Source: Chakrabartia godavariana (lineage in GTDB: Bacteria > Pseudomonadota > Alphaproteobacteria > Sphingomonadales > Sphingomonadaceae). Taken from it: a stretch of DNA of 64,000 nt. The DNA lies in contig RKSN01000002.1 in assembly GCA_005518185.1 (NCBI GenBank), forward strand, positions 186,001 to 250,000. Direction: 5' to 3'. This document shows positions 16,998-43,350 of this stretch, piece by piece (within the stretch, counting starts at the first letter, position 1; every line of letters starts with the position of its first letter). The notes under the pieces are model-generated. The model made no database searches. It was not told the origin of the DNA and saw nothing but the letters and a program-made list of their open reading frames with translations. Made by a program: the position numbers and the translations under genes.

Positions 16998-17966
16998 TCA
17001 GCCAGCACGCAGCGCGCGGAACCGTTCGATGAGCCAGCTTCTGAAAACCGCCATGACAGGATCGGACAGATCATCGGCATGGAACTTCAGATAATAGCCA
17101 TAGCCGTCCTCGACGACGGTCTGGAACGGCATGACGAGGCGCCCTTGGGCGATATCGTCTGCAAACATGTCGACATCGCCCAGCATGATGCCGCTGGCGG
17201 CCATGGCATATTGCGCCGCGGCCACCGCCGTATCGAATGCGACACCGCCTGAGGTGTCGACCTTTGCGCCGACCAGATGCGCATATGAGGACCAGAGCAG
17301 GTCGCGCGGCTGACCGTCGAGCTTGATGTGCAGCAGTTCATGCGCCTGCAGGAAGGACGCGAGCGATTGCCCCTCGGCAGATTTGGCCGTTTCCGGCGAG
17401 CAGAGCGGCGCCACGCGGACCATCCACAACAGATCGGTCACCCGGTCATCCACATTCGGGCGGTCATAGACGATCGCCATATCCAAGGCAGCCGTCGGAA
17501 GGCCGATGCCATTGGAACTCGTGACGTCGACGCGAATATCCGGATATTCGGTGCGGAAGTCCCGCAGGATGGGGAGAAACTGTTTCTGCAAGAGCGAAGG
17601 CGGAATGTGGATACGCACGGTCCGCTGGGCGATGCGGTCATCGCGGATGGCATTCATCGTCTGTTCGATGCGGTCGAGGCTTTTCGTCACCACGGGCAGC
17701 AGTTCCGCACCGGCTGCGGTCAGGAAGAGGCCGGTGGCCTCCCGTTCAAACAACTGCTTGCCAAGGAGTTCCTCAAGCCCGCTGACATGCCGACTCATCG
17801 CGCTCTGTGAGACCGAGAGGGACGCCGCGCCCACGGTGAAGCTGTTGTGCTGCCCCACGGCCTCGAACGCGCGAAGGGCGTTGAGCGGGAGCCAGCGGCG
17901 GTTGATTGTGCCCTTGTTCTGAATGAGATGGCCCTTCGGAGGTGCAGTGGTTTCGGACACGATCAC
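16998..17966 (-). CDS. LysR-family regulator, GcvA-like
   Basis: This 322-residue protein carries the GcvA-type N-terminus (LPLNALRAFEAVGQHNSFTVGA, then SVSQSAMSRHVSGLEELLG) after a poorly conserved 25-residue leader, and an effector domain. It uses GTG 17966; no internal start fits the helix-turn-helix. It is divergent from the Rieske operon beginning at 18068, so it is the likely regulator of that N-demethylation module. GcvA itself responds to glycine, which fits pathways ending in glycine, but the effector here is unknown. Confidence 0.88.
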   Translation of the reverse strand: MIVSETTAPPKGHLIQNKGTINRRWLPLNALRAFEAVGQHNSFTVGAASLSVSQSAMSRHVSGLEELLGKQLFEREATGLFLTAAGAELLPVVTKSLDRIEQTMNAIRDDRIAQRTVRIHIPPSLLQKQFLPILRDFRTEYPDIRVDVTSSNGIGLPTAALDMAIVYDRPNVDDRVTDLLWMVRVAPLCSPETAKSAEGQSLASFLQAHELLHIKLDGQPRDLLWSSYAHLVGAKVDTSGGVAFDTAVAAAQYAMAASGIMLGDVDMFADDIAQGRLVMPFQTVVEDGYGYYLKFHADDLSDPVMAVFRSWLIERFRALRAG

Positions 17967-17972
17967 AAGACC

Positions 17973-18010
17973 GACATTTTAACATGGGGCTATGCGAAAA
18001 AGACATTTTA
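17973..18010. promoter_or_regulatory. Direct repeat GACATTTTA in the divergent LysR/Rieske region
   Basis: Two identical 9-base copies of GACATTTTA lie at 17973-17981 and 18002-18010, 29 bases apart, inside the 101-base region between the GcvA-like gene and the Rieske operon. They are candidates for tandem half-sites of that regulator or for promoter elements. Confidence 0.4.
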
Positions 18011-18067: not shown

Positions 18068-19276
18068 ATGGACATGAAGCATATCGATGCGCTGTTTCGC
18101 GAGCGGAAGACCGGACACACCCTCCCCCGGCAGCTTTATATCGGCCAGGACGCCTTCGATTTCGACCTGACCGCCATCTATGGCCAGAGCTGGCTGATGG
18201 CCGGGATGGAGTGCGAACTGCCCAAGTCCGGCAGCTATATCTCGATGATGGTCGGCAAATGGCCGGTCCTGATCGTGCGCGACAAGCAGGGCGACATCCG
18301 CGCGTTTCACAACAGCTGCCGCCACCGCGGCTCGATCATCTGCCCGGCGGGCCACGGGACGGCGCCGAAGCTGGTCTGCCCCTATCACCGCTGGACCTAT
18401 GACCTGGACGGCGCCCTGTTCGCCGCAGGGCGCATGGACGATGACTTTGACAAGAGCGCGCATGGTCTGAAGCCGATCGCGATCGAGTGCATCGCCGGCG
18501 CCATCTACATCTGCCTGTCGGACAATCCGCTGCCGATTGACGACTTCCGCGCAAAGTTTTCCGAATATGCCGGTCCGCTCAACTTCAAGGACATGAAGCT
18601 GGCGCATGAGAGCAAGTTGGTGGAATATGCCAACTGGAAGCTCGTGATGGAAAATGCGCGCGAGTGCTATCACTGCGCGACCGGTCACCCGGAGCTGGCC
18701 AAGACCTTCCCCGTCGGCATGTCCAAGCATTTCGATGCGCATGAAGATGCCCGCGCCGAAGCCTTTGCCGCTGCGATGGACGCAGCCGGCCTGCCCCACA
18801 CGCCGGTTGAAGGACATTGGTGGCAGGTCGCCCGCTTCGCACTCAACGAAGGCTGCACCTCGATTTCGATCGACGGGCAACCGCTGGTGAAGAAGCCGAT
18901 GATCACCGCCAATGGCGGCGATGTCGGTTCGATGCGCTGGGCGATTGACCCGCATCTCTTCTGTCATGCGACGGCGGACCATGTCTTCATGTTCAGCTGC
19001 ATGCCGGTGAGCCCGACCGAAACGCATGTGTACAGCAAATGGTTCGTCCACAAGGATGCTGTTGAAGGCGTCGATTATGATATCGACAGCCTGACCCATC
19101 TGTGGACCGTCACCAACGGCCAGGACAAGGAACTGGCCGAAAACAATCACGCCGGCATCAACAGCCCCGGCTACACGCCCGGCCCCTATTCGGGGGATGC
19201 CGAGATGCTGGCCCGTCGCTTTACCGACTGGTATTGTGATGTTTCGCGGGCCTATATCGACAACCATGGCAAATAA
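18068..19276 (+). CDS. Rieske oxygenase alpha subunit, GbcA/choline-monooxygenase-like (module A)
   Basis: This 402-residue terminal oxygenase has a Rieske site C84-x-H86 and C104-x2-H107 (SCRHRG and CPYHRW). Its mononuclear iron region, ENARECYHCATGHPE, is the form seen in glycine-betaine and stachydrine demethylases (H-x4-H), with the distal carboxylate in TNGQDKELAENN. Such enzymes hydroxylate an N-methyl group, which leaves as formaldehyde. ATG 18068 is chosen, with GGGGGAG about 12 bases upstream. It is first in an eight-gene operon and overlaps the PLP gene by 11 bases. The exact betaine is unknown; no reductase is encoded nearby. Confidence 0.88.
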   Translation: MDMKHIDALFRERKTGHTLPRQLYIGQDAFDFDLTAIYGQSWLMAGMECELPKSGSYISMMVGKWPVLIVRDKQGDIRAFHNSCRHRGSIICPAGHGTAPKLVCPYHRWTYDLDGALFAAGRMDDDFDKSAHGLKPIAIECIAGAIYICLSDNPLPIDDFRAKFSEYAGPLNFKDMKLAHESKLVEYANWKLVMENARECYHCATGHPELAKTFPVGMSKHFDAHEDARAEAFAAAMDAAGLPHTPVEGHWWQVARFALNEGCTSISIDGQPLVKKPMITANGGDVGSMRWAIDPHLFCHATADHVFMFSCMPVSPTETHVYSKWFVHKDAVEGVDYDIDSLTHLWTVTNGQDKELAENNHAGINSPGYTPGPYSGDAEMLARRFTDWYCDVSRAYIDNHGK

Positions 19277-20525
19277 GCGCCCCGGGGACTTCCGCCCCGA
19301 AACACTGGCAGTCGCCTACGGATACGATCCGCAAATGGGCATGGGGGCCGCAAAGCCGCCCATCTTCATGACCTCGACCTTCGTCTATCCTTCTGCCCAG
19401 CACGCCAAGGATGTGCATGAGGCCTATTTTGACGGCACCGGCCCCCTCGTCGGGGAGACGAACCACATCTATTCGCGGCTCGGCCATCCGGGGCTCGATT
19501 TCCTTGAGGCGCGTCTGGCGGCGATCGATGGCGCGGAAGATGCCGTCGCCTATTGCAGCGGCATGGCCGCACATTCGAGCATCGCGCTGGCGCATGTCCG
19601 CAGCGGCGACAGCGTGCTGCACGGGCGGCCCATCTATGGCGGCGTGGACTTTCTCTACAATGAGATGATGCCCCAGTTCGGCGCGCATCCGGCTGCCTAT
19701 CTCGACGGCACGGATGAGGATGACGTCCGCGCGGCCGCCGAACGTGCCATGGCAAAAGGTACGCTCAAGCTGATCATCGCGGAAACCCCCGCCAATCCGA
19801 CGGCCGCCATTGTCGATCTCGACCTGATGGTCCGCACGGCGGACTGGGTTGGCGAACGGCAGGGCCATCGCCCGCTTGTCGTCGTGGACAACACGCTGCT
19901 CGGTCCCTTTGCCCAGCGCCCGATCGCGCATGGCGTCGACCTGTGCATGACCTCGCTCACCAAATATTGCGGCGGGCACAGCGATCTTCTGGCAGGTGGA
20001 ATTTCGGGCCGTGCCGACCTCATCCGGACGCTCAAGCTGCAGCGGACGACCTGGGGCAACCATCTCGACCCCTTCACGTCCTGGCTCGTGCTCCGCTCGC
20101 TGGAGTCGGTCGCTGTCCGCACCGAACGCGCGATGAGCAACGCGCGGGGTGTGGCAGAATATCTGCGCGATCATCCCAAGGTGGCCGGCGTCACCTATCT
20201 CGGCTTCCTCCCCGAAGGCAGCCGGGGCCGCGCCGTCTATGACCGGCAGTGCAAGGCCGCCGGGTCCACATTCTCCTTCCACCTACATGGCGGCGAGGCC
20301 GAAGCCTTCCGGATGCTCGACCGGCTGCAGCTGATGAAGCTCGCGGTCAGCCTCGGCGGGTCCGAAACACTGATCTGCCATTCGGCAAGCACGACGCATT
20401 ACGCCGTCGCTCCGGCCCAGCGGCTGGCGGGCGGCATTACCGACGGGACCATCCGGCTTTCGGTCGGGCTCGAACATATTGACGACCTGATCGCCGATCT
20501 GGCGCAGGCATTAGAGGCGGTGTGA
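19266..20525 (+). CDS. Cys/Met-metabolism PLP-dependent enzyme
   Basis: This 419-residue fold-type I enzyme belongs to the cystathionine/methionine gamma-lyase family. The PLP lysine is K233 in SLTKYCGG; the phosphate/substrate segment YSRLGHPG and the loop Tyr124 (PIYGG) are present. The residue equivalent to the cysteine of true methionine gamma-lyase is Gly126, so classical methionine gamma-lysis is less likely. It would cleave a beta or gamma substituent from an amino acid, or catalyse a replacement. Its place directly after the Rieske gene, with overlap, suggests it acts on the demethylated product or on a side chain of the same compound. Confidence 0.85.
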   Translation: MANKRPGDFRPETLAVAYGYDPQMGMGAAKPPIFMTSTFVYPSAQHAKDVHEAYFDGTGPLVGETNHIYSRLGHPGLDFLEARLAAIDGAEDAVAYCSGMAAHSSIALAHVRSGDSVLHGRPIYGGVDFLYNEMMPQFGAHPAAYLDGTDEDDVRAAAERAMAKGTLKLIIAETPANPTAAIVDLDLMVRTADWVGERQGHRPLVVVDNTLLGPFAQRPIAHGVDLCMTSLTKYCGGHSDLLAGGISGRADLIRTLKLQRTTWGNHLDPFTSWLVLRSLESVAVRTERAMSNARGVAEYLRDHPKVAGVTYLGFLPEGSRGRAVYDRQCKAAGSTFSFHLHGGEAEAFRMLDRLQLMKLAVSLGGSETLICHSASTTHYAVAPAQRLAGGITDGTIRLSVGLEHIDDLIADLAQALEAV

Positions 20526-21988
20526 TGGAACTCAACTTTACTGGAACCGACATTTGCGCGGTCAATGGCACGCGCAGCGCCCCTGAAACACGCTATGACG
20601 TTGTCGTCGTGGGTGCCGGACCGAGCGGCATCGCCGCTGCCATCGACGCGGCAACGGCAGGCAAGTCCGTGCTGCTGGTCGACGAAAACCCGGTCTCTGG
20701 CGCGCTGATGGGCAATGACACGCCGCTCTATTTCGGGGGCCGGATGACGGCCGCGACGCAGAATGCCGACCGGATGCTCGAAGCGATCTTCATGAGCATG
20801 CCCGATCTTGAAAAGGCGATGGAGGCAGGCGCCGAACTGCTGCTCGGCACCACGGCCTGGGGCGTCTACCGCAACGGTCCGGGTGTTGCGAGCCTGCCGG
20901 AACAGGTGGTCGGCCTTGCCGACGCGGAACGGTCCTGGATGGTCGGCTTCGGCAAGATCGTGCTTGCAACCGGAGCGCGCGATCTGGCGCTGGCCTTCCC
21001 CGGCTGGAACCAGCCCGGCGTGATGGGGGCGGCCGCCCTCCAGATGCTGCTGACCCGCTATGACGCCTTTGCAGGCCGCCGGATGCTCGTGCTCGGATCG
21101 CATGATCTGGCGCTGGAAACGGCGCTCCTCGCCCACGGGCGCGGCGTGGAGGTCCTTGGCCTCATCGAGACGCGCGATGCGCCGCAGGGCGGCGATGATC
21201 TCGTCGCCGCCGTGAAGGCCGCGGGCATCCCGATCACCTGCGGGCAGACGATCGCATCGGCCAAGGGCGGCATCGATGGTGTCGAAGCCGCAACGCTCAC
21301 CAATGGCGAGACGATCGCCTGTGACACGATCTGCGTTGCCATCGGCCTCGTGCCGTCGATTGAACTCGTCGACGCAATGCACGGCCCGCGCTCGCTCAAC
21401 CCTGCACGCGGCGGCTATGTGCCCGCCGGCGAACCGTCGGTCGACGTGGTCGGCGATTGTGCGGGGCTGCCCGACACAGGGTTTGATCACGTCGCCTATC
21501 GCATGGACTGGATGCGGGCGCTGACCGCCGTCTCGGCCAACGACACGATCATCTGCCAGTGCGAGGAAGTGACGCGCGCTGACCTGATTGGCGTGCAGCC
21601 GCCCAACTATCTGCCGCGCCCCGCCGCGATGTGCGCGCGCTCGCTCGAGACGCTGCTGAAGGATGGCCCGGCCAATCAGGACCAGATCAAGCGCCTTACC
21701 CGCGCCGGGATGGGCGTGTGCCAGGGCCGCCGCTGCCGCGATCAGGTCGCGATGCTGCTCGCGCTGGAATCGGGCACGCCGTTCGGCACAATCCCGCTTG
21801 CCAGCCACCGTGCGCCGGTGCGCCCGCTGCCGCTCAAGATCCTGGCGGAATGGGACGAACCGGCCGAGATGGAAGCAGCCTGGGACGTGTGGTTCGGCAT
21901 CCCGACACAATGGGTTCCGGTCGAGGATGTCGGCACGCCTTATGAGGATGACCATCGCGAGATGCTCTATACGGGGATGTACAAATGA
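20525..21988 (+). CDS. FAD/NAD(P)-dependent oxidoreductase with BFD-like [2Fe-2S] domain (HcnB/OoxA-like)
   Basis: This 487-residue flavoprotein begins with a dinucleotide-binding VVVVGAGPSGIAAA (about residues 22-35), has a second ATGARD site, and ends with a BFD-like cluster domain: C344, C346, C399 and C404 (CQCEE ... CQGRRC). This is the architecture of the large subunit of hydrogen cyanide synthase, opine oxidase and D-hydroxyproline dehydrogenase. These enzymes dehydrogenate the C-N bond of an amino acid or secondary amine. Start ATG 20525 overlaps the upstream stop (TGATG; GTG 20522 is possible). Its partner is the next gene. The small ferredoxin-like HcnA subunit is not present next to it. 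Confidence 0.85.
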   Translation: MELNFTGTDICAVNGTRSAPETRYDVVVVGAGPSGIAAAIDAATAGKSVLLVDENPVSGALMGNDTPLYFGGRMTAATQNADRMLEAIFMSMPDLEKAMEAGAELLLGTTAWGVYRNGPGVASLPEQVVGLADAERSWMVGFGKIVLATGARDLALAFPGWNQPGVMGAAALQMLLTRYDAFAGRRMLVLGSHDLALETALLAHGRGVEVLGLIETRDAPQGGDDLVAAVKAAGIPITCGQTIASAKGGIDGVEAATLTNGETIACDTICVAIGLVPSIELVDAMHGPRSLNPARGGYVPAGEPSVDVVGDCAGLPDTGFDHVAYRMDWMRALTAVSANDTIICQCEEVTRADLIGVQPPNYLPRPAAMCARSLETLLKDGPANQDQIKRLTRAGMGVCQGRRCRDQVAMLLALESGTPFGTIPLASHRAPVRPLPLKILAEWDEPAEMEAAWDVWFGIPTQWVPVEDVGTPYEDDHREMLYTGMYK

Positions 21989-23121
21989 GCGGGTCTGAAG
22001 TCGTCATCGTCGGTGGGGGTGTCACCGGGCTCAGCGCAGGCTGGTGGCTTGCCCGGTCGGGCGTGAAGGTCACCGTGCTCGACAAGTTCATTGTCGGCTG
22101 GGAAGCCTCCGGCCGCAATGGCGGCGGTGCCTCGCACTATTCGAGCCCGCTCTTTGACGAGGAACAGCGCCTTTGGCCGCAGATGGACGAGCTGCTCGGC
22201 TATCCGACCGAGCACCAGAAGGGTCGCATCCTGATTGCGATGACCGAACGGCAGTGGGAGCAGTACCGCTTCATTGCCGAGCGTCACACGCGCCTCAACC
22301 ACCCGGTCGAGCTGCTCGACGTCAAGCAGGTTCAGGACGCAGTTCCGCTGGCCGGCGACAACTGCTTTGGCGGCGTCCACTACAAGTTCGGCGGCCACGC
22401 CAACCCCCAGCGCACGGTGCAGGCCTATGCCTGGGCGCTGCAGGATCTGGGCGGCAAGATCGTCCAGCACAGCCCCGTGACAGGCTTTGAAACGGCGGGC
22501 GGCAAGGTCACGGCGGTGAAGACCGCCAATGCGACTTATGGCTGCGATGCCGTGGTGGTCGCAGCTGGGCCACAAATCCCGCAGCTGATGGCGCAGCTGG
22601 GCGTGGACGTGCCGCTGGCGGCGGCGCGCGCGGAAATGATCATCACCGAGCCTGCGCCGATGATGCCGCTGGGCGGCGTCGACGGGCACAAAATCTATGG
22701 CCGCCAGACGCTGCGCGGGAACCTTGCTTATGGCGGCGGCCCGCATGAATGGCTTGATGTCGATGCGACCGGCCCCAAGGCGCGCCCCTCGACGCCGCTT
22801 GCCCGCAACCTTGCCAAGCGGCTGGCCGAGCTTCTGCCCAAAGCGGCGCATCTGAACGTCATCCGCAGCTGGGCAGGCGTGATCGAGAATTCGCCCGACG
22901 GCCGCCCGATCCTCGATCGGCTGTCGAGCCCGGACAATGTCACGGTCGCTTCCATGTCGAGTGTCGGCTTCGGCCTGTCGCCCGCATCGGGCCACGCGAT
23001 CCGCGATCTGGTCATCGACGGCACCTGCTCCTTCACCAACCTTGATCTGTTGAAGCTCTCGCGCTTTGACGGGCTGGAGAAGGACTGGCGCGAAAAGCGC
23101 GGGTGGATGCCGATTTCATGA
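21985..23121 (+). CDS. FAD-dependent amine/amino acid dehydrogenase (HcnC/OoxB-like, DAO family)
   Basis: This 378-residue D-amino-acid-oxidase-fold protein starts with VVIVGGGVTGLSAGWWLARSG for FAD binding, and has SGRNGGGASH, a typical flavin contact in sarcosine-oxidase-beta and HcnC relatives. It overlaps the HcnB-like gene by four bases (ATGA), so the two likely form one heteromeric dehydrogenase that takes the substrate C-N bond here and passes electrons to the iron-sulfur subunit. It is also coupled to soxB. Substrate is probably an N-alkyl or imino acid; this is inference from family. Confidence 0.88.
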   Translation: MSGSEVVIVGGGVTGLSAGWWLARSGVKVTVLDKFIVGWEASGRNGGGASHYSSPLFDEEQRLWPQMDELLGYPTEHQKGRILIAMTERQWEQYRFIAERHTRLNHPVELLDVKQVQDAVPLAGDNCFGGVHYKFGGHANPQRTVQAYAWALQDLGGKIVQHSPVTGFETAGGKVTAVKTANATYGCDAVVVAAGPQIPQLMAQLGVDVPLAAARAEMIITEPAPMMPLGGVDGHKIYGRQTLRGNLAYGGGPHEWLDVDATGPKARPSTPLARNLAKRLAELLPKAAHLNVIRSWAGVIENSPDGRPILDRLSSPDNVTVASMSSVGFGLSPASGHAIRDLVIDGTCSFTNLDLLKLSRFDGLEKDWREKRGWMPIS

Positions 23122-24374
23122 GCCGCTACTCCGCGCTCGGGCTGCTGCGTGGCGCCCTGACCGGGCACAAGCACTGGCAGCCTGCCTGGCGCGACCCGGA
23201 GCCCAAATCGCACTACGACATCCTCATCATCGGGGGTGGCGGGCATGGGCTGGCGACGGCCTATTACCTCGCCAAGGTGCATGGACTGCGCAATATCGCG
23301 GTGCTTGAAAAGGGCTGGATCGGCGGCGGCAATACCGGCCGCAACACGACCATCGTGCGCTCCAACTACCGGCTGGAGCCGCTGCACAATTTCTACGAGT
23401 TCGGCCTGAAGCTGTGGCACGGGCTGAGCGACGAACTGAACTACAACGTCATGTTCAGTCCGCGCGGCGCGATGTTCCTTGGCCATAGCGATGCGGACAT
23501 GGTGAAGCTCGCCGAACGCGGCGATGCGATGCGGTGCGACGGCATCGATGCCGATCTGCTGAGCCGCGATGAGGTCGCCAAGCTTGAGCCGCTGCTCGAC
23601 ATGTCGCGCGATGCACGCTTCCCGATCGAAGGTGGCCTGATCCAGCGCCGCGGCGGCACGGCGCGCCATGATGCGGTCGCCTGGGGCTATGCGCGTGGCG
23701 CCGACAGCCTGGGCGTCGACATCATCCAGAAATGCGAAGTCACCGGCTTTGTGCGCGATGGCGATGCCGTGGTCGGCGTGGAAACGACACGCGGGCGTAT
23801 CGGCGCGGGGCGCGTCGGCATCTGCGTCGCCGGACATAGCGGCCATGTCGCCGCGATGGCGGGGCTGAAGCTGCCAGTGGAATCGCAGACCTTGCAGGCG
23901 ATGGTGACCGAAGGCGTGAAGCCGATGATCAACACCGTGATCATGTCCCAGTCGCTGCACTGCTATATCAGCCAGTCCGACAAGGGCGGCATCGTCTTTG
24001 GCGGCGACCCCGACAATTGGCCAAGCTATGCACAGCGCGGCGATCCGTCGATCATGGAAGGCGCCGTGGCACAGGGCCTTGCGCTCGTCCCTGCCCTGTC
24101 GCGCCTGCGCATGGTGCGGACATGGAGCGGCGTGACCGATATGAGCTTTGACGGCACGCCGATCATTGGCGAAACGCCGGTGCCCAACCTCTATATCAAT
24201 GGCGGCTGGTGCTATGGCGGGTTCAAGGCGACGCCCGCATCGGGCTGGACCTACGCCCACACGCTGGCGACGGGCAAGCCCCACCCGCTCAACGCCCCCT
24301 TCGCGCTCGACCGCTTTGAACGCGGCGCCACCATCGACGAAACCGGGAGCGGCCCGATGCCGAACAGCCGCTAA
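23118..24374 (+). CDS. soxB: Sarcosine oxidase beta subunit (module A copy)
   Basis: This 418-residue subunit matches heterotetrameric sarcosine oxidase beta at full length: FAD motif IIGGGGHGLATAYYLA (about residues 37-52), [16 protein letters not shown], and GGTARHDAVAWGYA, which contains the histidine that carries covalent FMN in the family. The subunit holds the site where an N-methyl amino acid is oxidised. Start ATG 23118 overlaps the upstream stop. It forms a set with soxD, soxA and soxG downstream. Being in a Rieske/PLP operon, this copy may act on an N-methyl amino acid other than sarcosine. Confidence 0.92.
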   Translation: MSRYSALGLLRGALTGHKHWQPAWRDPEPKSHYDILIIGGGGHGLATAYYLAKVHGLRNIAVLEKGWIGGGNTGRNTTIVRSNYRLEPLHNFYEFGLKLWHGLSDELNYNVMFSPRGAMFLGHSDADMVKLAERGDAMRCDGIDADLLSRDEVAKLEPLLDMSRDARFPIEGGLIQRRGGTARHDAVAWGYARGADSLGVDIIQKCEVTGFVRDGDAVVGVETTRGRIGAGRVGICVAGHSGHVAAMAGLKLPVESQTLQAMVTEGVKPMINTVIMSQSLHCYISQSDKGGIVFGGDPDNWPSYAQRGDPSIMEGAVAQGLALVPALSRLRMVRTWSGVTDMSFDGTPIIGETPVPNLYINGGWCYGGFKATPASGWTYAHTLATGKPHPLNAPFALDRFERGATIDETGSGPMPNSR

Positions 24375-24637
24375 TGATGCAGATCACATGTCCCCATTGC
24401 GGCCCCCGGTCGCAGTCCGAATTTGTCTATGGGCGGACGGTCGATTCCGTCGTCGCGCTTGATGCACCCGCCGATCAGGCGATGACCGCCTTGTTCACCC
24501 GCACCAACCCGCGCGGGCCCGATGACGAAATCTGGCGCCATACCTATGGCTGCCGGGCGTGGATTGTCATCACGCGTCACCGCGTGACCAATGAGATCAC
24601 GGCCACACGTGCCGTCGGCTCGGAGGCGCTGCCATGA
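24374..24637 (+). CDS. soxD: Sarcosine oxidase delta subunit (module A copy)
   Basis: This 87-residue zinc-binding subunit has C6 and C9 (CPHCG) and the distal His/Cys pair in WRHTYGC, the ligands known in the delta subunit. It has a structural role in the tetramer. Start and stop overlap its neighbours (TAATG and ATGA), so it is translated in step with soxB and soxA. Confidence 0.9.
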   Translation: MMQITCPHCGPRSQSEFVYGRTVDSVVALDAPADQAMTALFTRTNPRGPDDEIWRHTYGCRAWIVITRHRVTNEITATRAVGSEALP

Positions 24638-27417
24638 CCGGCCCGTCCCGCAATGCCGCGGGCGCGACCCTGCGCTTCACCTTTGACGGCAAGACCTATT
24701 TTGCGCGGCCGGGCGACACGCTGGCAGCCGCCCTCCTTGCGAACGGCGTGGCGCTGGTCGGCCGCAGCTTCAAATATCACCGCCCGCGCGGGATCATGAC
24801 CGCCGGCATCGAAGAGCCGAATGCGCTCGTGACTGTCGGCGAAGGCGGTCGCCGTGAACCCAATACCCGCGCCACCGACCTGTTCGTCTATGACGGCCTT
24901 GTCGCGCGCAGCCAGAACCGCTGGCCCAACCTCAGCTTCGATCTGGGCGCGGTGTTCAGCCTCGCCGCCCCGATGCTGCCCGCCGGTTTTTACTACAAGA
25001 CCTTCTTCGGCTCAGCCAAACGGTGGATGTTCTACGAATATTTCATCCGCAAGGCCGCCGGGCTCGGCAATGCCCCGACAGAGGCTGATCCCGACCGGTT
25101 CAGCCACCGCGCGGCCTTCTGCGACGTGCTCGTCGTTGGCGCCGGACCTGCCGGGTTGCAGGCCGCCCTCGAACATGCCGAAGCCGGAAAGCGCGTCATC
25201 CTTGCCGAGCAGGACGCCGTGCTTGGCGCTTCCCTGATCCGCGACCCGCAGGAACTGGATTCAGCATGGGTGGAAGCGACCGCCACCCGCATCCGCGCGG
25301 CAGGCGGGCGCATCCTCACCCGGACGACCGCCTCGGGCTATTGGGAACATGACCTCGTCACGCTGACCGAACGGCTGGCCGAGCCCGGCGCCAAGCCCGC
25401 GCATGGGCTTGCGCAGCGGCTCTGGCATGTCCGTGCCGGGCAGGTGATCCTTGCAACCGGCAGCATTGAGCGGCCGATCGCCTTTGCGCATAATGACCGC
25501 CCCGGCGTCATGCTGTCGCAGGCGGCGCGCACCTATGTCCGCCGCTTTGGCGTGCTGCCGGGCAAACGCGTCGTTGTCGCCACCAACAATGATGACGCCT
25601 ATCTGACTGCCGCTGCGCTCAGGGACGCCGGTGCGGACATCGTGGCCATCCTCGATGCCCGTCCGGACCTTTCGGCGGCGGCCACTGCCGCGCAGGCGGC
25701 TGGTCACCCTGTCTTGACCAACGCCGTGCCGCTCTCGGTTGATGGCGCACGGCATTGCCTGACCAAGGTCACGGCAAAGGTCGACGGACAGACGCAGAGC
25801 TGGCCCGCCGATCTGATCGCCGTGTCGGGCGGATTCACCCCCGTCGTCCATCTGCATATGCAGGCGGGCGGCACGCTCGACTGGAACGAGGCTGCACAGG
25901 CGTTCGTCCCGAAAGCCGCGCGTCAGAACGTGACGACAATCGGCGGTGCCGCAAATCCGCAGCCCGTCCATCCGGTCGTGCCCGTTGGCAATCCGAAGAA
26001 GAGCTTCATCGATTTCCAGAACGATGTGTCGCTCGCCGATGTCGATCTCGCCTGGGCCGAAGGCTACCGGTCAGTCGAGCACTTGAAGCGCTACACAACG
26101 CTTGGCATGGCGACCGATCAGGGCAAGCTCAGCAACATGGCGGCGCTGGGCCGTCTTGCCGAAAAGCAGGGCGTTTCCATCCCGGAAGCCGGACTCACGA
26201 CGTTCCGCCCGCCCTACACGCCCGTCAGCATGGGCTTGATCGCGGGGGCTTCGGGCAAGAATGCCGGTGCCCATATGCGTCGCATCGCGCTGCATGACGT
26301 CCATACGCAGAAGAACCCGATCTGGCAGCCGCTGGGCTATTGGTTCCGCCCGCGCGCCTACCCGCAGGGGCAGGAGACACTGGCCCAAGCCGCGCTGCGC
26401 GAGGCCCGCGCCGTGCGCACGGGCGTCGGCATGACCGACGTCTCCACGCTTGCCAAGTTTGAGGTGAGCGGCCCCGATGCCGCTGCCTTCCTCGACATCA
26501 TCTGCGCCACGACCGTCAGCAAGCTCGCTGTCGGGCGCGGCCGCTACACCTTCATGCTGCGTGAAGACGGGATCGTGTTTGACGACGGCACGGTCTGGCG
26601 TCTGGCTGAGGATCGTTTCCTGCTGACCAGTTCGACCGGCGGCGCAGACCGGATGGCGACGCATATCTCCTATGTGCGGCAATATCTCTGCCCGCAGCTG
26701 CGCGTCTCGGCTGTGACGGTGCAGGAACATTATGCCGGGATCGCCATTGCCGGGCCCAAGGCCAAGGCCGCGATGGACGCGCTGATCGGTGCGGACGCCC
26801 CGCGCCACATGTCCACCCTGCCCGCGACCATCGCGGGTATTCCGGTCCTTGTGCTGGCGGCGAGCTACAGCGGCGAACGCGCCTTTGAAGTCTATGTCGA
26901 GGCCAGCCATGCCGCCCCCGTCTGGGCTGCGTGCGAGGCCGAGGTCACCGCACAGGGCGGCTGCCTCTACGGCCTTGAGGCGATGGAGTTCCTCCGCATT
27001 GAAAAGGGCCATGTGGTCGTCGGCGGCGAAGTCGACGGGCGGATGACCCCGGCCGATCTCGCGCTCGACAAGATGCTCAACAAGGCGGGCGGCTATATCG
27101 GTGCAACCGGCCTGTCGCGTCCTGCGCTCAGCGAACCCGGGCGTCGGCAGTTTGTCGGGCTGGAGGCCATTGAAGGCACGATCCCGGAAGGCGCCATGCT
27201 GGTGTCGGCGGAAGGACAGTCCCCGCAGGGCCATGTCAGCGCTGCGGCCTTCCGCATAATGGACGGCGGGTCGATTGCCCTCGCCCAGCTGACCGATGGC
27301 TTCAGCCGCTATGGCGAGGAACTGATCGCATCGTCGCCGACACGCGGCCAGAAAGCCCGCGTCCGCGTTGTCCATCCGCATTTCTATGACGCAGCAGGAG
27401 AGCGTTACCGTGACTGA
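24634..27417 (+). CDS. soxA: Sarcosine oxidase alpha subunit (module A copy)
   Basis: This 927-residue subunit has the N-terminal ferredoxin-like domain without cluster cysteines (FTFDGKTYFARPGDTLAAAL, residues 13-32, then SFKYHRPRG), an NAD-binding region with VVGAGPAGLQAAL (about 167), and a C-terminal GcvT-like tetrahydrofolate domain (from about 590) ending with the glycine-cleavage-T barrel. The folate domain captures the released one-carbon unit as methylene-tetrahydrofolate. Its N-terminus is shorter than in the module B copy (lacking the LPxGGRVxR lead), and KTFFGSAKRWMF replaces the common KTFMWP form, so it is a distinct subtype. Confidence 0.92.
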   Translation: MTGPSRNAAGATLRFTFDGKTYFARPGDTLAAALLANGVALVGRSFKYHRPRGIMTAGIEEPNALVTVGEGGRREPNTRATDLFVYDGLVARSQNRWPNLSFDLGAVFSLAAPMLPAGFYYKTFFGSAKRWMFYEYFIRKAAGLGNAPTEADPDRFSHRAAFCDVLVVGAGPAGLQAALEHAEAGKRVILAEQDAVLGASLIRDPQELDSAWVEATATRIRAAGGRILTRTTASGYWEHDLVTLTERLAEPGAKPAHGLAQRLWHVRAGQVILATGSIERPIAFAHNDRPGVMLSQAARTYVRRFGVLPGKRVVVATNNDDAYLTAAALRDAGADIVAILDARPDLSAAATAAQAAGHPVLTNAVPLSVDGARHCLTKVTAKVDGQTQSWPADLIAVSGGFTPVVHLHMQAGGTLDWNEAAQAFVPKAARQNVTTIGGAANPQPVHPVVPVGNPKKSFIDFQNDVSLADVDLAWAEGYRSVEHLKRYTTLGMATDQGKLSNMAALGRLAEKQGVSIPEAGLTTFRPPYTPVSMGLIAGASGKNAGAHMRRIALHDVHTQKNPIWQPLGYWFRPRAYPQGQETLAQAALREARAVRTGVGMTDVSTLAKFEVSGPDAAAFLDIICATTVSKLAVGRGRYTFMLREDGIVFDDGTVWRLAEDRFLLTSSTGGADRMATHISYVRQYLCPQLRVSAVTVQEHYAGIAIAGPKAKAAMDALIGADAPRHMSTLPATIAGIPVLVLAASYSGERAFEVYVEASHAAPVWAACEAEVTAQGGCLYGLEAMEFLRIEKGHVVVGGEVDGRMTPADLALDKMLNKAGGYIGATGLSRPALSEPGRRQFVGLEAIEGTIPEGAMLVSAEGQSPQGHVSAAAFRIMDGGSIALAQLTDGFSRYGEELIASSPTRGQKARVRVVHPHFYDAAGERYRD

Positions 27418-27910
27418 CGTGACCATCACGCCCCTGCCAGCCGCGCCGCTGCATGTCTTTGAAATCTGGAGCAATCCGTCTGCGGTGGCCAAGAGGTTCA
27501 GCGCCGCCATGGGTTATGACCTGCCTGCAACGGGGCGGTCCGGCGGCACCGAGGCACTGCGCCTGATCCGCTTCGAACCGACCGTCTGGCTGGTGGAGGG
27601 GGACGTAGCGCCCCTGCCCGCCATTCTGGGCGACGACGGCGCGATCACCGCGATTGGCGGCGGGATCGTGCGCGTGCGCCTCTCCGGCGCGGACTGGCGC
27701 AGCCTGCTGATGGAAAGCGGCGTGTTCAACGCCGAAGACCCGGCCTTTGCCGCCGGGTGCAGCGCCTCCACCGTGATCGACCATGTCAATGTGCGCTTGC
27801 ACGTCGTCAGCGACGATGTCTGCGATGCCTATGTGCCGCTGAGCTATGCCACCGCGCTGCTGCACTTCTGGGAAGAGGCTTCGCACGGACTGGTGCCGAC
27901 CCACCGCTGA
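27410..27910 (+). CDS. soxG: Sarcosine oxidase gamma subunit-like protein (divergent)
   Basis: This 166-residue protein occupies the soxG position after soxA. It shows the FEPTVWLVEGD element like the 'pdewLL' strand and a CSASTVIDHVNVRL segment, but it lacks the RSFA motif near the C-terminus that is present in the module B copy. GTG 27410 is preferred, with AGGAG 9 bases upstream and an 8-base overlap with soxA; ATG 27386 is an alternative. The divergence suggests a changed tetramer interface or substrate access. The name rests largely on gene order. Confidence 0.65.
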   Translation: MTDVTITPLPAAPLHVFEIWSNPSAVAKRFSAAMGYDLPATGRSGGTEALRLIRFEPTVWLVEGDVAPLPAILGDDGAITAIGGGIVRVRLSGADWRSLLMESGVFNAEDPAFAAGCSASTVIDHVNVRLHVVSDDVCDAYVPLSYATALLHFWEEASHGLVPTHR

Positions 27911-27918: not shown

Positions 27919-29247
27919 CTATTTTTCGGTCGGAGAGACCTCTGCGGCCAGATGCTGCAGCCGGAGCCCGTTGGCATGGCGCCGCTGGAACCCCTTCCAT
28001 AAGGTCACACCCGGCCCGCCGGGGCTGACTGCGCCCCAAGGCGTGTCCGCAGGCGCATCCCATGAGCCTGAGGCGGCGTCCTCGACCGGCAAGTCGAGAT
28101 AGCCCGCCATGTCCGCCTCACCGCGCAGATGAAGCGCGAGGAAAGCGGTGATGAAGTGCAGGTTGATCGCGTTCACGCGGTCCTGCCGCCAGATCGGGTC
28201 CTCAAACCAGTCCAGATCCCAGACCGAACCGCGCATCTCCGCAGGCGCGGGATTGAGCGCGATGGCATGGCCCGCATGCTTGTAGGTGAGCAGGTACCGC
28301 GAACTGTTGACGGCTTGCGCAAAGAACGCCCTGGCCGCCTGTTCATAGCCGACGACGGGATCGCTATCCCCTGCGATCAGCAGCAGCGGCGCGGTTAAGG
28401 CAGCCAGCCCTTCCGGGCCCCAGACGGACTTCGGACCGCCGCCCGCGGGTGCAATCGCTACAATCGCCTTTACGCCAGGCACGATGGCAGAGTCGGCAGA
28501 GGCGCCGCCGCGGGCGATGGATTTGAGCCAACCGCCCGCCACGAGGCCCGCATAGGGATGGCTCGGATCAAGGCGCGCGCCTCCCGCCGTCAGCACGCCA
28601 TAGCCCCCTTGCGAATAGCCGATCAGCGCCACCTTTTCGGGGTCGATCTCATTCCCCAGGGTCGCGCGCAATTGCGCGGCGACAAAGCTGATATCGACCG
28701 GCCGGTTATAGTTCGGCGCAGCGCGAATGGCGGGCGCCACAACATAAGGATTGGGGTCGGCATGATGGATCGCCGCCACCACATAGCCCTTGGACGCCAG
28801 ATTTTCCGTCAGCCAAGTCATGACCGCAGGCACGTTGCTGTAACCGTGCGACAGGATGACCAGAGGATGGCGCTGCCCATCGTGCGGCGCATTGGGCGTC
28901 GCCAACCCTGCTTGGGTGAACGCAACGGGCGGGCGCGGTGGCTCCCCCCACAGTGTGCCACGATAGAGCGCCTTGGGCGCGCCCTTCCGGACCTGCGCGG
29001 GATACCAGATGTCCACCTGCAGGCGGCGGTCATGCAGACGGACGGCACCCGTTTTCGGGTCGGCATGTTCAAGGTCGGGCTGATCACGGTGCACGAAGGT
29101 GACCGAGCGGAAGCCGACGCCTGCAGGACCGAGCTTTGCCAGTTCCGGCGCATCAACGCCCGGCCGCGCGGGGCTTTGCGCAACTGCTGCCGCGCCGATC
29201 GGGAGCGACAGCGCGACCAGCAGGCCGAAAACGACCTTAGGCATCAT
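27919..29247 (-). CDS. Secreted alpha/beta hydrolase (chlorophyllase/PAF-acetylhydrolase-like)
   Basis: This 442-residue protein has a signal peptide (MMPKVVFGLLVALSLPIGAA, cut near AVAQ), so it is exported to the periplasm. The hydrolase core carries VILSHGYSN (oxyanion side) and the nucleophile elbow GYSQGG, with a C-terminal KHAGHAI histidine. It would hydrolyse an ester or amide. The start ATG 29247 lies within the 3' end of the LysR gene, so it is coupled to it. It converges on soxG of module A. Function in the N-methyl pathway is unclear; it might release a betaine from an ester. Confidence 0.82.
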   Translation of the reverse strand: MMPKVVFGLLVALSLPIGAAAVAQSPARPGVDAPELAKLGPAGVGFRSVTFVHRDQPDLEHADPKTGAVRLHDRRLQVDIWYPAQVRKGAPKALYRGTLWGEPPRPPVAFTQAGLATPNAPHDGQRHPLVILSHGYSNVPAVMTWLTENLASKGYVVAAIHHADPNPYVVAPAIRAAPNYNRPVDISFVAAQLRATLGNEIDPEKVALIGYSQGGYGVLTAGGARLDPSHPYAGLVAGGWLKSIARGGASADSAIVPGVKAIVAIAPAGGGPKSVWGPEGLAALTAPLLLIAGDSDPVVGYEQAARAFFAQAVNSSRYLLTYKHAGHAIALNPAPAEMRGSVWDLDWFEDPIWRQDRVNAINLHFITAFLALHLRGEADMAGYLDLPVEDAASGSWDAPADTPWGAVSPGGPGVTLWKGFQRRHANGLRLQHLAAEVSPTEK

Positions 29248-30220
29248 CTGATCCCGCCGTGGCACTTGGCCATTTCAGATACTCCTCGATCCAGGGATAT
29301 TCGGACGACACCCGCGAAAAGGTCGTCTCGCGCAGCACCCGCTGGCACACCGCCGCCGTCAGCCGCGGAATATTGCCCAGCTCCCCGGCGCGCGCGACCA
29401 CCTGCACCTGTCGCGCGAAACGGCCACGCGTCATCGGCAAGGGCCGCAGACGGGGCAGAAGTTCCGGCACGGCAGCGAGGCACACCGGCGTCGTGATCGT
29501 CCAGCCAAGCCCTGCCGCAACCAGACCGAGCTGCTGGTGCGAGGATTCGACCTCAATCGTGGCCGGCAGCTTCAACTTCATGCGCACGATCTGGCGTTCG
29601 ATCTGCTGGCCCGTCCCCGTCAGCCGCGAAAAGCGGATCAGGGGCAAGGGGATCGTGTCCGACACGATATCCGTTGGGCCCTGATAGAAGGCGGGAAAAA
29701 CGAGGATGAAGCCTTCCTCGATCACCGGATGCAGTTCCAGCGCGCCGCGATGTTCGAGGTTGAAGCTGCCCGTAACAAGCAGGTCGATGTCACGCGCCAG
29801 AAACTCGGCCTGATGCTCCATCGAAATGCCCGACCGGATGTTCCACCGGTCCGCGCGGCCGCTCAGCTCGCTCAGGATCGGCGTCGTCAGTTCGTTGGCA
29901 AGGCTGTACGACATGGCGACGGTGATGCTGGAAATCGGCAGGTTCGCGCCTTCGCGCACCTCGTCATAGGTGGAGCGTGCCTGCGTGATCAGCGTCTGGC
30001 CACGGGCGAAGAGCGCCTTTCCGCTGGCCGTGAGCCCCATGGGCCGCATCGTCCGGTCAAACAAGGGCGCACCGATGCCCGTTTCCAACTTTGCGATGGT
30101 CTGCGACACGGCGGACTGGGTCACCTGCAGGTGGGTCGCGCATTGCGACATGCCACCCAGCTCCACGGTCATGACGAACACCTCAAGCGCGTGGAGATCA
30201 AATTCCTGAGGCAATTTCAT
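29237..30220 (-). CDS. LysR-family transcriptional regulator
   Basis: This 327-residue regulator has an N-terminal helix-turn-helix (LHALEVFVMTVELGGMSQCA, then TQSAVSQTIAKLETGIG) and a LysR effector domain. It is downstream of the BCCT gene on the same strand but has its own 125-base leader with a perfect 7-base palindrome, so it is probably self-regulated. It overlaps the hydrolase gene and may control that gene and module B. Confidence 0.9.
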   Translation of the reverse strand: MKLPQEFDLHALEVFVMTVELGGMSQCATHLQVTQSAVSQTIAKLETGIGAPLFDRTMRPMGLTASGKALFARGQTLITQARSTYDEVREGANLPISSITVAMSYSLANELTTPILSELSGRADRWNIRSGISMEHQAEFLARDIDLLVTGSFNLEHRGALELHPVIEEGFILVFPAFYQGPTDIVSDTIPLPLIRFSRLTGTGQQIERQIVRMKLKLPATIEVESSHQQLGLVAAGLGWTITTPVCLAAVPELLPRLRPLPMTRGRFARQVQVVARAGELGNIPRLTAAVCQRVLRETTFSRVSSEYPWIEEYLKWPSATAGSDDA

Positions 30221-31911: not shown

Positions 31912-31932
31912 TACCCTCTCCCCTCGTTCGTT

Positions 31933-35293: not shown

Positions 35294-35562
35294 TTGCGGG
35301 GTTCCCCTGCCTTGTACGTGGTTTCAAACTTGTCGGTGACGGTATCGCGCACCGCATTGAAGAAGCGGCCACAGCCGTGGATATGGCGCCAGCGCTCATG
35401 GTGACGGCCACGCGGATTGGCGCGGATGAAGAGATAGTGCTCCCACTCCTCATCGCTCAATGCGGAAGGGTCCGCCGGCCGCGCGATATGCGCCTGCCCG
35501 GCATAAGCGAACTCAAGTTCTGCGCGCTTTTCGTCGCAATAGGGACAATGGATCAGGATCAT
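35290..35562 (-). CDS. soxD: Sarcosine oxidase delta subunit (module B copy)
   Basis: This 90-residue subunit has zinc ligands C6 and C9 (CPYCDEKR) and the RWRHIHGCGRFFN segment with the His/Cys pair. ATG 35562 is the start, fitting the usual 90-residue size; it directly follows the soxB stop. Confidence 0.95.
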   Translation of the reverse strand: MILIHCPYCDEKRAELEFAYAGQAHIARPADPSALSDEEWEHYLFIRANPRGRHHERWRHIHGCGRFFNAVRDTVTDKFETTYKAGEPRK

Positions 35563-35563
35563 A

Positions 35564-41013: not shown

Positions 41014-43350
41014 TCAGAGAAACAGCTCTGCGGCGGCGTCAAAGATCGCTTCGGCGTCAAGGCGATAGCGGCTGTACAGGTCCGGAAGGTCGCCCGTCTG
41101 GCCGAAACTGTCAACGCCCAGCGGGCTGACCCGCATCCCGCGCACGCCGCCAAGCCAGGAGAGCGCGCCGGGCGCGCCGTCAATCACGGTCACCAGACCC
41201 GCGCCGGGCGCAAGCACCGAGAGCAGATCTTCAATATGGCTGCCCGCGCGCCCGTTGCGCGTCCAGCGAGCGGCATGGCGCGCCGACCAGTCACGGTGGA
41301 GCAGATCGGGCGACGTCACATTGAGCAGGCCGATCCCCGGCACATCATCGGCCAGCTGCTCCCACGCCTGCAGCACTTCGGGCGCGATGGCGCCGGTAAA
41401 GGCAATGGCGGCATCGGCGTTCGGGCCGGGCTGCTTCAGCCAATAGGCACCCTTCAGGGCATCGGCCTGCCAGTCGTCCGAGGTGCGCGGCATCTGGGGG
41501 ATGACCCGCGTGCTGAGCCGCAGATAGACCGAGCTGCCGTCCGGATCCTGCATATGGTCAAATGCCCAGCGCATCATCAGTGCGACTTCGTCGGCCCAGG
41601 CCGGTTCGAAATAAGCGAGATTGGGCTGCCCCATGCCGATCAGCGGCGTGTTGATCGACTGGTGCGCGCCGCCTTCCGGCCCGAGCGTCAGGCCCGACGG
41701 CGTGCCGACCAGCAGGAAACGCGCGTCCGAATAACAGCCATAGTTGAGCGCATCGAGCCCGCGGGCGATGAACGGATCATAGACCGTGCCGACCGGTATC
41801 AGCCGCGTGCCGAAATGCGGTCCCGCAAGGCCCAGCGAGGTCAGCGCGAGGAAGAAGTTGTTCTCCGCAATGCCAAGCTCAATGTGCTGGCCGGCGGCAT
41901 GTCCGTCCCACTTCTGGGCGGACGGGATCTTCGCGGCGCGGAACACGTCGACCATCTCCGCCCGGCGGAACAGGCCGCGCTGATTGACGAAAGCCCCGAG
42001 ATTGGTGGTCTGCGTCACGTCAGGGGCGGTCGTCACGATATGGTCGGCCAGGGGCGCGTCCGACTTTGCAAGGTCCAGCAGGATATTGCCAAAGGCCGCC
42101 TGCGTGGATTGCGCCTCCCCTGCCGGCGCGGCGAACGTGGCCGGGACCGGGATGCGCGGTGCGACGGCCTCTGCGGGCTTGGCCGCCAGCGGGCTGCGGC
42201 TGACGAAATCCCTGAGGCGCGCGGCCTGATTGTCGCCAAGGCCGCCATAGGGGGCCCATTCCTCGCCCGGCGGGATGGCCAGGCTTTCGCGCAGCATTTC
42301 GATCTGGCCGGGGTTCATCATCCCCGAATGATTATCCTTATGGCCCGCAAGTGGCAGACCGTGCCCCTTGACCGTATAGGCGATGAACAGCGTCGGCAGG
42401 TCATCCTGCGCGCTGTCAAACGCGTCGATCAGTGTTTCAACGCAGTGTCCGCCCAGATTGGTCATCAGAGTCGCCAGCCCGGCATCGTCGAACGAGTCGA
42501 GCAGCGCCTTGACGTTCCGTGCCGTCCCAATGTCGGCCATCAGCCGCTGGCGCCACGCCGCCCCGCCCTGATAGGTCAGCGCAGCAAATTCGGCGTTGGG
42601 GCAATTGTCGATCCAGTCGGAGATCGCCTGCCCGCCGGGACGCGCAAAGGTCTTGCGCTGCAGCTTGCCGTGCTTGAGCGTGATGACGCGCCAGCCGCAG
42701 GTCTCGAAGATGTCGTCAAAGCGGCGGAACATGCGGTCAGCGGTCGTGCTGTCCAGCGACTGCCGGTTATAATCGACCACCCACCAGCAGTTGCGGATGT
42801 CGTGCTTGTACCCTTCGATGAGGCATTCGTAGATGTTGCCTTCATCAAGCTCGGCATCGCCCATCAGCGCGATCATGCGGCCGGCATCCGCCTCGGCCAT
42901 CCGGCCATGGGCGATCAGGTAATCCTGCACCAGACTGGAAAAGGCCGTGATCGCGACACCCAGACCGACCGAGCCTGTCGAGAAATCCACGGGGATCTTG
43001 TCCTTGGTCCGCGACGGATAGCTCTGCGCGCCACCAAGCGCGCGGAAGCGCTGGAGCTGTTCGAGCGACTGATTGCCCAGGAGATAATGGATCGCCTGCA
43101 ACACCGGCCCCGCATGCGGCTTGACCGCGACCTTGTCCTGCGGGCGCAGCGCATGGAAATAGAGCGCGGACATGATCGCCGTCATGGAGGCGCAGCTGGC
43201 CTGATGCCCGCCGACCTTCAGGCCGTCACGCTTCTCACGGATGTGGTTGGCATTGTGCACCGTCCAGGACGACAGCCAGCGCAAGCGCGTGTCGAGCGCC
43301 TCCAGCGCCGACACAATGTCCTCACGGCTTTCAGCAACCAAAGTCGGCAT
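41014..43350 (-). CDS. AceE-like pyruvate dehydrogenase E1 / transketolase-family protein
   Basis: This 778-residue thiamine-diphosphate enzyme is related to the homodimeric E1 (AceE) type: GGHQASCASM and DFSTGSVGLG at the N-terminal half, and the cofactor motif GDAELDEGNIYE (164-175) leading to N195. The usual GDG is GDA here. It is shorter than AceE (about 890). AceE enzymes decarboxylate pyruvate for acetyl-CoA synthesis, but no E2 or E3 gene is nearby, so it may act on another 2-oxoacid or work with core subunits elsewhere. ATG 43350 follows GGAGG. It is divergent from an Lrp regulator. Confidence 0.82.
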   Translation of the reverse strand: MPTLVAESREDIVSALEALDTRLRWLSSWTVHNANHIREKRDGLKVGGHQASCASMTAIMSALYFHALRPQDKVAVKPHAGPVLQAIHYLLGNQSLEQLQRFRALGGAQSYPSRTKDKIPVDFSTGSVGLGVAITAFSSLVQDYLIAHGRMAEADAGRMIALMGDAELDEGNIYECLIEGYKHDIRNCWWVVDYNRQSLDSTTADRMFRRFDDIFETCGWRVITLKHGKLQRKTFARPGGQAISDWIDNCPNAEFAALTYQGGAAWRQRLMADIGTARNVKALLDSFDDAGLATLMTNLGGHCVETLIDAFDSAQDDLPTLFIAYTVKGHGLPLAGHKDNHSGMMNPGQIEMLRESLAIPPGEEWAPYGGLGDNQAARLRDFVSRSPLAAKPAEAVAPRIPVPATFAAPAGEAQSTQAAFGNILLDLAKSDAPLADHIVTTAPDVTQTTNLGAFVNQRGLFRRAEMVDVFRAAKIPSAQKWDGHAAGQHIELGIAENNFFLALTSLGLAGPHFGTRLIPVGTVYDPFIARGLDALNYGCYSDARFLLVGTPSGLTLGPEGGAHQSINTPLIGMGQPNLAYFEPAWADEVALMMRWAFDHMQDPDGSSVYLRLSTRVIPQMPRTSDDWQADALKGAYWLKQPGPNADAAIAFTGAIAPEVLQAWEQLADDVPGIGLLNVTSPDLLHRDWSARHAARWTRNGRAGSHIEDLLSVLAPGAGLVTVIDGAPGALSWLGGVRGMRVSPLGVDSFGQTGDLPDLYSRYRLDAEAIFDAAAELFL

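Follow-up and report, generated by a model that had tools for sequence, protein, structure and literature searches.

A conserved alphaproteobacterial operon proposed to mineralise the headgroup of the betaine lipid DGTS

We analysed a 64,000-nucleotide stretch of the Chakrabartia godavariana genome (GCA_005518185.1, contig RKSN01000002.1, positions 186,001 to 250,000; hereafter the window), in which eight genes on the plus strand at 18068-27910 (module A) encode a Rieske oxygenase, a pyridoxal 5'-phosphate (PLP) enzyme, an HcnBC-like dehydrogenase and a sarcosine oxidase-type set, SoxBDAG. From gene context, we propose, with a probability of about 0.6, that this operon serves to mineralise a betaine-lipid headgroup, that of diacylglyceryl-N,N,N-trimethylhomoserine (DGTS), which in deacylated form is glyceryl-N,N,N-trimethylhomoserine (GTS). 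Rieske quaternary-amine demethylases, flavin amine dehydrogenases and sarcosine-oxidase-type enzymes each remove one N-methyl group, while PLP enzymes require a primary amine, and those of the Cys/Met family eliminate the gamma substituent from free-amine amino acids. The presence of three N-demethylating systems and one PLP lyase in a single overlapping operon supports this reading, and GTS would fit as the substrate once this chemistry is taken together with neighbouring genes for glycerol and 2-oxoacid enzymes. The wider claim, namely a dedicated LysR-controlled route for DGTS-headgroup mineralisation in several alphaproteobacterial families, involving an O-glycerylhomoserine gamma-lyase as a new PLP activity and a subgroup of Rieske enzymes that act on homoserine-ether betaines, we hold to be slightly better than an even bet.

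Operon organisation and conservation

The genome carrying the window is 3.17 Mb in size; among named organisms, Sphingorhabdus and other sphingomonads are closest to it. In order, the eight genes encode a Rieske oxygenase alpha subunit of the betaine-demethylase type (18068..19276), a PLP enzyme of the Cys/Met metabolism family, which is the proposed O-glycerylhomoserine gamma-lyase (19266..20525), an HcnB-like FAD/BFD subunit of an amine dehydrogenase (20525..21988; Pyr_redox_2 and SO_alpha_A3), an HcnC-like DAO-family FAD subunit (21985..23121; DAO, 212 bits), SoxB of the sarcosine oxidase beta type (23118..24374), a SoxD-type subunit (24374..24637), a SoxA-type subunit with a folate-binding GCV_T domain (24634..27417) and a SoxG-type subunit (27386..27910). 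An earlier sequence-only reading had placed the same families at the same coordinates, and had described the genes as overlapping or nearly so; with the starts given here, which were adjusted by homology, each gene overlaps the next, the seven overlaps measuring 11, 1, 4, 4, 1, 4 and 32 nt.

Named relatives were taken as the best 80 of at least 452 confirmed PLP loci, and a locus was scored as carrying the module when the PLP gene was accompanied there by a Rieske gene, or by HcnB together with HcnC. The search for this gene order in other genomes, which the sequence-only reading had suggested as a check, returned the module in 69 of the 80 named loci. Together with 12 further loci, 92 were examined (numbered here with the prefix L), of which 70 carried the module (the 69 named and L124) and 22 did not; as L030 and L107 lie on one contig, there are 21 distinct controls. 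Within the genus, a PLP orthologue (79-92% identity) was present in 10 of 12 other genomes, with Rieske, PLP and HcnB genes adjacent in all 10; one of the two remaining genomes had only a 46% PLP relative and the other had no match. The complete set of eight genes with a divergent LysR gene was found in 7 of these 10, the other 3 being cut by contig ends, and L021, the most divergent of the 10 genus loci, keeps the order with flanking genes unlike those of the window. The eight-gene order is thus not due to chance.

Spacing was equally tight in the named loci, where gaps of at most 30 nt separated Rieske-PLP in 56/63 pairs, PLP-HcnB in 67/67, HcnB-HcnC in 62/63, HcnC-SoxB in 44/48, SoxB-SoxD in 28/30, SoxD-SoxA in 29/30 and SoxA-SoxG in 37/40, counting only plus-strand pairs placed adjacent by a simple gene caller (which missed SoxD in 14 cases, leaving a SoxB-SoxA gap of about 260 nt). 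Rieske, PLP, HcnB and HcnC genes were all present in 58 of the 70 module loci; nine of the other 12 are cut near the PLP gene, and L095 has no HcnBC beside it. The hosts include Sphingorhabdus, Novosphingobium, Sphingomonas, Caulobacteraceae, Rhizobium oryzicola, Methylobrevis, Ancylobacter and Hyphomicrobiales UR115, with Novosphingobium nitrogenifigens DSM 19370, Sphingorhabdus contaminans KCTC32445 and Sphingomonas pruni NBRC 15498 among the named carriers. When 385 genomes sampled across the class were searched, 6 PLP matches reached E<=1e-138: our own genome, L118, which is probably UR115 again (its coordinates are those of L098), L124, a new module locus with FrmA and inverted SoxG/SoxA in which no glpK was seen, and three matches at 53-54% identity without the module.

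A LysR-type regulator gene (16998..17966, minus strand; best NCBIfam match GcvA, 183 bits, below the cut-off of 288) diverges from the operon, and LysR is present in 47 of the 70 module loci, some of which are cut by contig ends. Between the LysR and Rieske genes lies a palindromic operator-like site, CATTTTnnCATnGnnCTATGnnAAAA (17975..18000, plus strand), which had one genomic match, read on both strands, when as many as 2 mismatches were tolerated, had an expected count of 0 in window shuffles and recurred exactly in 10 of the 80 named loci. From this single site, we infer that LysR is a single-target regulator. The core of the module is LysR-Rieske-PLP-HcnB-HcnC.

The PLP enzyme

The PLP enzyme scored 315 bits against PF01053 (Pfam gathering score 27), marginally exceeded the cut-off of NF005455, the PRK07049 cystathionine gamma-synthase family (504.2 against 504), and fell below that of the met_gam_lyase model TIGR01328 (331 against 549.7 bits). 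In a quick tree (LG+G4; 90 proteins, with a long-branch warning among the outsiders), 71 module members and the lone L097 fell on one side of a branch with a Shimodaira-Hasegawa-like approximate likelihood ratio test value (SH-aLRT) of 100, and 18 proteins, including the organism's own 45% paralogue, on the other; 18 positions are near-fixed for different residues between the 71 module enzymes and the 18 others. Solved members of the PRK07049 family (5ijg and 7swh) share 43-49% identity with the module enzyme (Z 50-53), while family relatives outside the module clade had no Rieske or HcnBC neighbours in the 21 distinct controls (among them L097, whose PLP gene falls inside the clade). Methionine gamma-lyase has the same fold, and its PLP lysine, Tyr/Arg pair and C-terminal Arg align with those of the module enzyme. 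It differs in its overall sequence (33-37% identity to its rows), in the clade-specific positions and in the residue at position 115, which we take to be the active-site Cys of methionine gamma-lyase; when aligned with 4mkk, the chain of which itself carries Ala at this position, the module enzyme has Gly. The structure models of the PLP enzyme (predicted local distance difference test, pLDDT, 84) and of the hydrolase described below confirm the predicted folds, without naming a substrate.

Rieske oxygenase and flavin demethylases

The Rieske protein carries PF00355 and PF00848, the 2Fe-2S motif CRHRG...CPYH and the bridging glutamate before the catalytic His (ENARECYHC), and scores 425 bits against the GbcA model NF058607, below its cut-off of 670. 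The bridging Glu was placed via alignment of the module B protein (see below) with 3vca and the carnitine oxygenase CntA. Two residues before it lies the selectivity position, described in PMC7948474 as Tyr in CntA and Asn in demethylases. Instead of the demethylase Asn, all 61 module Rieske proteins read (the window and 60 named loci) have Ala or Gly there (Ala in the window), which may open the pocket; elsewhere in the window, this position is Asn in the module B and Phe in the module C Rieske protein. The closest solved chains are 3n0q (putative), 3vca and 4qup, the last two of which we take to be the stachydrine demethylase Stc2; it shares the bridging Glu and the Rieske motif, and has Asn (ENNRECYHC) in place of the Ala/Gly of the module. 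No Rieske reductase gene lies inside the window operon. L098 and L102 have a GbcB-like reductase gene between Rieske and PLP, and the candidate in our own genome (contig C4, 103261-104313) is weak (233 bits, below the cut-off of 500), GbcB model matches being also found in 11 of 14 control genomes.

The HcnB/HcnC-like labels follow from domains (Pyr_redox_2 with SO_alpha_A3/BFD, and DAO), no HcnB- or HcnC-named model being among the matches listed. As for the four subunits of heterotetrameric sarcosine oxidase, only SoxB of module A lies above its cut-off (TIGR01373, 662 against 529 bits), whereas SoxD (TIGR01374, 75 against 116.5, with PF04267 above threshold), SoxA (TIGR01372, 1020.7 against 1164, with GCV_T at 194.6) and SoxG (TIGR01375, 41 against 144) fall below. 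Since SoxA, SoxB and SoxD of module B (31933-36817) all exceed their cut-offs (its SoxG reaches 108 of 144 bits), the Sox proteins of module A form a diverged set. Across the 70 module loci, the third demethylase slot held SoxB in 49, a monomeric amine oxidase in 5, both in none and neither in 16. The monomeric enzyme follows HcnC, with no SoxBDAG seen, in L098, L100, L102, L104 and L114 (that of L100 scores 174 bits against an N-methyl-L-tryptophan oxidase model, below the cut-off of 257), and the Sox genes are inverted in L094, L095 and L124. Three oxidative demethylation systems with a PLP lyase are hence the commonest theme of the module, not an exceptionless rule, and SoxBDAG is an exchangeable part. 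The eight genes of the sequence-only reading do belong together, but its boundaries require revision: SoxBDAG can be swapped, and the unit extends to the divergently oriented LysR gene and, at many of the loci, to a hydrolase gene.

Genes linked to the operon

Beside the operon, on the minus strand at 27919..29247, lies a gene for an alpha/beta hydrolase resembling PETases and platelet-activating factor acetylhydrolase (PAF-AH), a candidate deacylase (PF12740, 46.7 bits), with a second LysR regulator gene adjoining it (29237..30220, minus strand). By visual inspection, which covered this window type alone, its N-terminus resembles a signal peptide. A GYSxG motif with Ser212, together with Asp296 and His327, is invariant in 16 rows and would constitute the catalytic triad; the structure model (pLDDT 73) matched feruloyl esterase, PETases and PAF-AH/Lp-PLA2 best in Foldseek. 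Homologues of this type occur in 18 of the 70 module loci, and esterase- or lipase-like hydrolases of any of four Pfam types (PETase/PAF-AH-like; DUF3089, presumably also hydrolases; CocE/S15; patatin) in 25 of 70, against 0 of 21 controls in both cases. In L078, the patatin gene sits inside the operon, between HcnC and SoxB.

An AceE-type 2-oxoacid dehydrogenase E1 gene (41014..43350, minus strand; aceE model 159 bits, cut-off 860), about 13 kb from the operon, has counterparts in 12 of 70 module loci and in 0 of 21 distinct controls. As our genome has a separate housekeeping PdhA above its cut-off, this E1 is an extra enzyme. It may be likened to P. putida MdeB; a literature search returned no paper on an mdeA-mdeB operon. 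GlpD was found in 3 and GlpK in 4 of the 70 module loci (0 of 21 controls each), one of the GlpK matches (L042) being a partial gene 7 kb away, where its locus ends, and probably incidental. In L085, glpD, glpK and the AceE-type E1 gene overlap successively by 4 nt and are followed by LysR and then the divergent operon Rieske-PLP-HcnB-HcnC-SoxBDAG-MFS-PurU, where MFS denotes a major facilitator superfamily transporter; in L079 and L078, glpK and glpD lie beyond LysR, with one and two intervening genes, respectively. A GlpK search of 29 module genomes, taken from the 69 named module loci, was positive in 27 (23 with one, 4 with two), and by a rough estimate chance would place GlpK within about 21 kb of the site in about 0.15 of 29 genomes of 4 Mb, against 3 seen, in two lineages. 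Formaldehyde or formate genes accompany 18 of 70 module loci (1 of 21 controls), with PurU beside the module in some, and glycine-betaine-type ATP-binding cassette (ABC) transporters accompany 4 of 70 (L100 by model, the others by similarity; 0 of 22 controls).

Proposed pathway and alternative readings

The pathway that we propose is built on gene order, conservation, the PLP clade, the residue switches and these linkages, and its substrate, reactions and their order are all conjectural. A hydrolase would free GTS from the lipid, and GTS would enter via MFS, ABC betaine or betaine-choline-carnitine (BCCT) transporters. Removal of the first methyl group would fall to the Rieske oxygenase, of the second to the HcnBC-like dehydrogenase and of the third to SoxBDAG or the monomeric oxidase, with release of formaldehyde or methylene-folate expected from family chemistry. 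From the resulting primary amine, O-glycerylhomoserine, gamma-elimination by the PLP enzyme would yield glycerol, ammonia and 2-oxobutanoate; judging by gene linkage, the AceE-type dehydrogenase and glpK/glpD would process the products. The route would amount to DGTS synthesis reversed, with a lyase at the end, since DGTS is built as diacylglyceryl-O-homoserine plus three methyl groups, according to PMC10685587. That GTS exists is indicated by PMC11711679 on the Chlamydomonas lyso-DGTS lipase ABHD1, an alpha/beta hydrolase of algal lipid droplets that makes GTS from lyso-DGTS, and to which we liken the window hydrolase by its alpha/beta hydrolase chemistry. The sequence-only reading had also envisaged a heteroatom-substituted betaine that is demethylated and cleaved by the PLP enzyme, which agrees with our proposal, but it had set the cleavage between the demethylations; because the PLP enzyme needs a primary amine, cleavage is most likely the last step.

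Several observations weigh against GTS as the substrate. Two Novosphingobium loci, L057 and L075 (21 kb), have no Rieske gene beside PLP despite long contigs, while retaining LysR-PLP-HcnBC-SoxBDAG; L097 carries the PLP gene alone; and among the 16 loci with neither SoxB nor a monomeric oxidase, L094 and L124 carry SoxA where the locus ends, and of the remaining 14, 7 span at least 16 kb. The E1 scores far below the aceE cut-off, the glpK/glpD linkage amounts to 3 loci in two lineages, the sole GlpK candidate of our own genome (574 bits, below the cut-off of 590) is on another contig, and the hydrolases could act on other esters. A second block of genes, found beside the module in 11 of 70 loci and described below, is not accounted for by the pathway. 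Fisher tests (70 against 21 loci) gave p = 5.6e-4 for any hydrolase and 0.018 for GlpK, GlpD and E1 together, but were not significant singly for E1 (0.061), formaldehyde/formate (0.062), GlpK (0.57) or GlpD (1); for loci of at least 15 kb (52 against 17), the values were 8e-4, 0.03, 0.1, 0.03, 0.57 and 0.57 in the same order. These p values are only a guide, since the loci are related, so that independence is overstated, and several accessory queries were chosen after looking.

The main rival, which we regard as unlikely, is that the operon converts free homoserine betaine, an osmolyte, to homoserine, which the PLP enzyme deaminates to 2-oxobutanoate. The three demethylations and the 2-oxoacid would be identical, the betaine ABC transporters are compatible with it, and cystathionine gamma-lyases presumably deaminate homoserine. 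This substrate, however, leaves the glpD-glpK linkage and the recurrent hydrolases unexplained, and its hydroxyl is a poor leaving group. Moreover, the few module record titles that name a habitat mention pond, bog or bloom, and none the sea (by eye).

A sulfur- or otherwise heteroatom-substituted betaine, such as methionine betaine, with a PLP enzyme acting like methionine gamma-lyase, was an option in the sequence-only reading and seems to us less probable still. The shared fold and strong matches to methionine gamma-lyase models speak for it, as does L055, in which sulfate-assimilation-like genes (cysD, cysN, cysQ-like) lie about 1.6 kb from E1; none of the 25 other module loci with inspected gene lists, however, shows sulfur genes (both points by eye), and the Gly at the position of the presumed Cys115 and the sub-cut-off met_gam_lyase score argue against it. 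The neighbouring glpD/glpK, AceE-type E1 and hydrolase genes point instead to an oxygen ether between homoserine and glycerol.

Of similarly low probability is a variant of glycine betaine catabolism in which the PLP enzyme serves an unrelated step, e.g. as O-acylhomoserine sulfhydrylase or cystathionine synthase. The demethylation cascade does resemble the GbcAB-DgcAB-SoxBDAG pathway of Pseudomonas and Colwellia, where, according to PMC3691474, a Rieske enzyme acts first, a second demethylase follows and SoxBDAG is third. Module A differs in that an HcnBC-like pair (by domains) replaces DgcAB, a PLP lyase is added, the Rieske Asn has become Ala/Gly, the Sox subunits have diverged and the neighbours fit a C4 homoserine ether, not glycine. 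In addition, the module PLP enzymes form their own clade, and some 4 kb further downstream (31933-38378) there is a separate module whose SoxA, SoxB and SoxD exceed their cut-offs and whose Rieske protein keeps the demethylase Asn. The canonical glycine betaine pathway was rejected for module A, as module B fits it better; diacylglyceryl-hydroxymethyl-trimethyl-beta-alanine (DGTA) was rejected as substrate, since a beta-amino acid would be unsuited to a gamma-lyase. Recycling of self-made lipid only was likewise rejected, our genome having no match to PF11899, which we take to be BtaA; this is consistent with use of foreign lipid. PF11899 matched in 11 of 29 module genomes tested, so recycling is possible in those 11.

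Other genes of the window

Module B as a whole (30346-38378) comprises a BCCT transporter gene, SoxGADB and the Asn-type Rieske gene, and looks like ordinary glycine betaine catabolism. Module C (45469-53976) encodes an AptA-type omega-aminotransferase, a dehydrogenase, the Phe-type Rieske protein and two DAO/GCV_T proteins of the dimethylglycine-dehydrogenase type; by its gene content, it appears to be a third betaine-type pathway. The second block (46782-47864 and 56001-63702) encodes an MDR (medium-chain) dehydrogenase, a 3-hydroxyisobutyrate dehydrogenase (HIBADH)-like protein, two aldehyde dehydrogenases, a LysR regulator, a glucose-methanol-choline (GMC) oxidoreductase and an enolase-superfamily dehydratase, and may serve to oxidise the alcohol that is released. 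Two or more of its genes (at least 50% identity) accompany 11 of 70 module loci, against 0 of 21 controls, the carriers being Novosphingobium and allied loci (e.g. L059, L067 and L069), Caulobacteraceae (L089 and L092) and L124; the block also occurs in the genus locus L021. The enolase-family protein is 86-91% identical where seen. Upstream of module A, at 6369-10199, a KshA-type Rieske oxygenase gene precedes that of a TonB-dependent receptor. A tetratricopeptide repeat (TPR)-sulfotransferase protein adjoins the module in L069 (3438-5525; Pfam-checked) and in eight other loci, its gene lying in Novosphingobium between those of a TonB receptor and an MFS transporter.

Significance

The sequence-only reading knew of no described pathway joining these enzymes, with which our searches agree: no described catabolism of the DGTS headgroup was found among the open-access papers searched. 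Algae, fungi, some mosses and ferns and some bacteria contain betaine lipids, which can substitute for phospholipids when phosphate is short (PMC10685587 and PMC10132767). As PMC9892843 reports very little turnover of the glycerol and homoserine-betaine parts of DGTS in Chlamydomonas, it should fall to decomposers to bring the carbon and nitrogen of the headgroup back into circulation. If our reading is true, the operon would turn the phosphorus-free head of a betaine lipid into glycerol, ammonia and a usable organic acid, and it would supply marker genes for a betaine-lipid headgroup sink, add a new activity to those of PLP enzymes and yield a prediction that can be tested directly.

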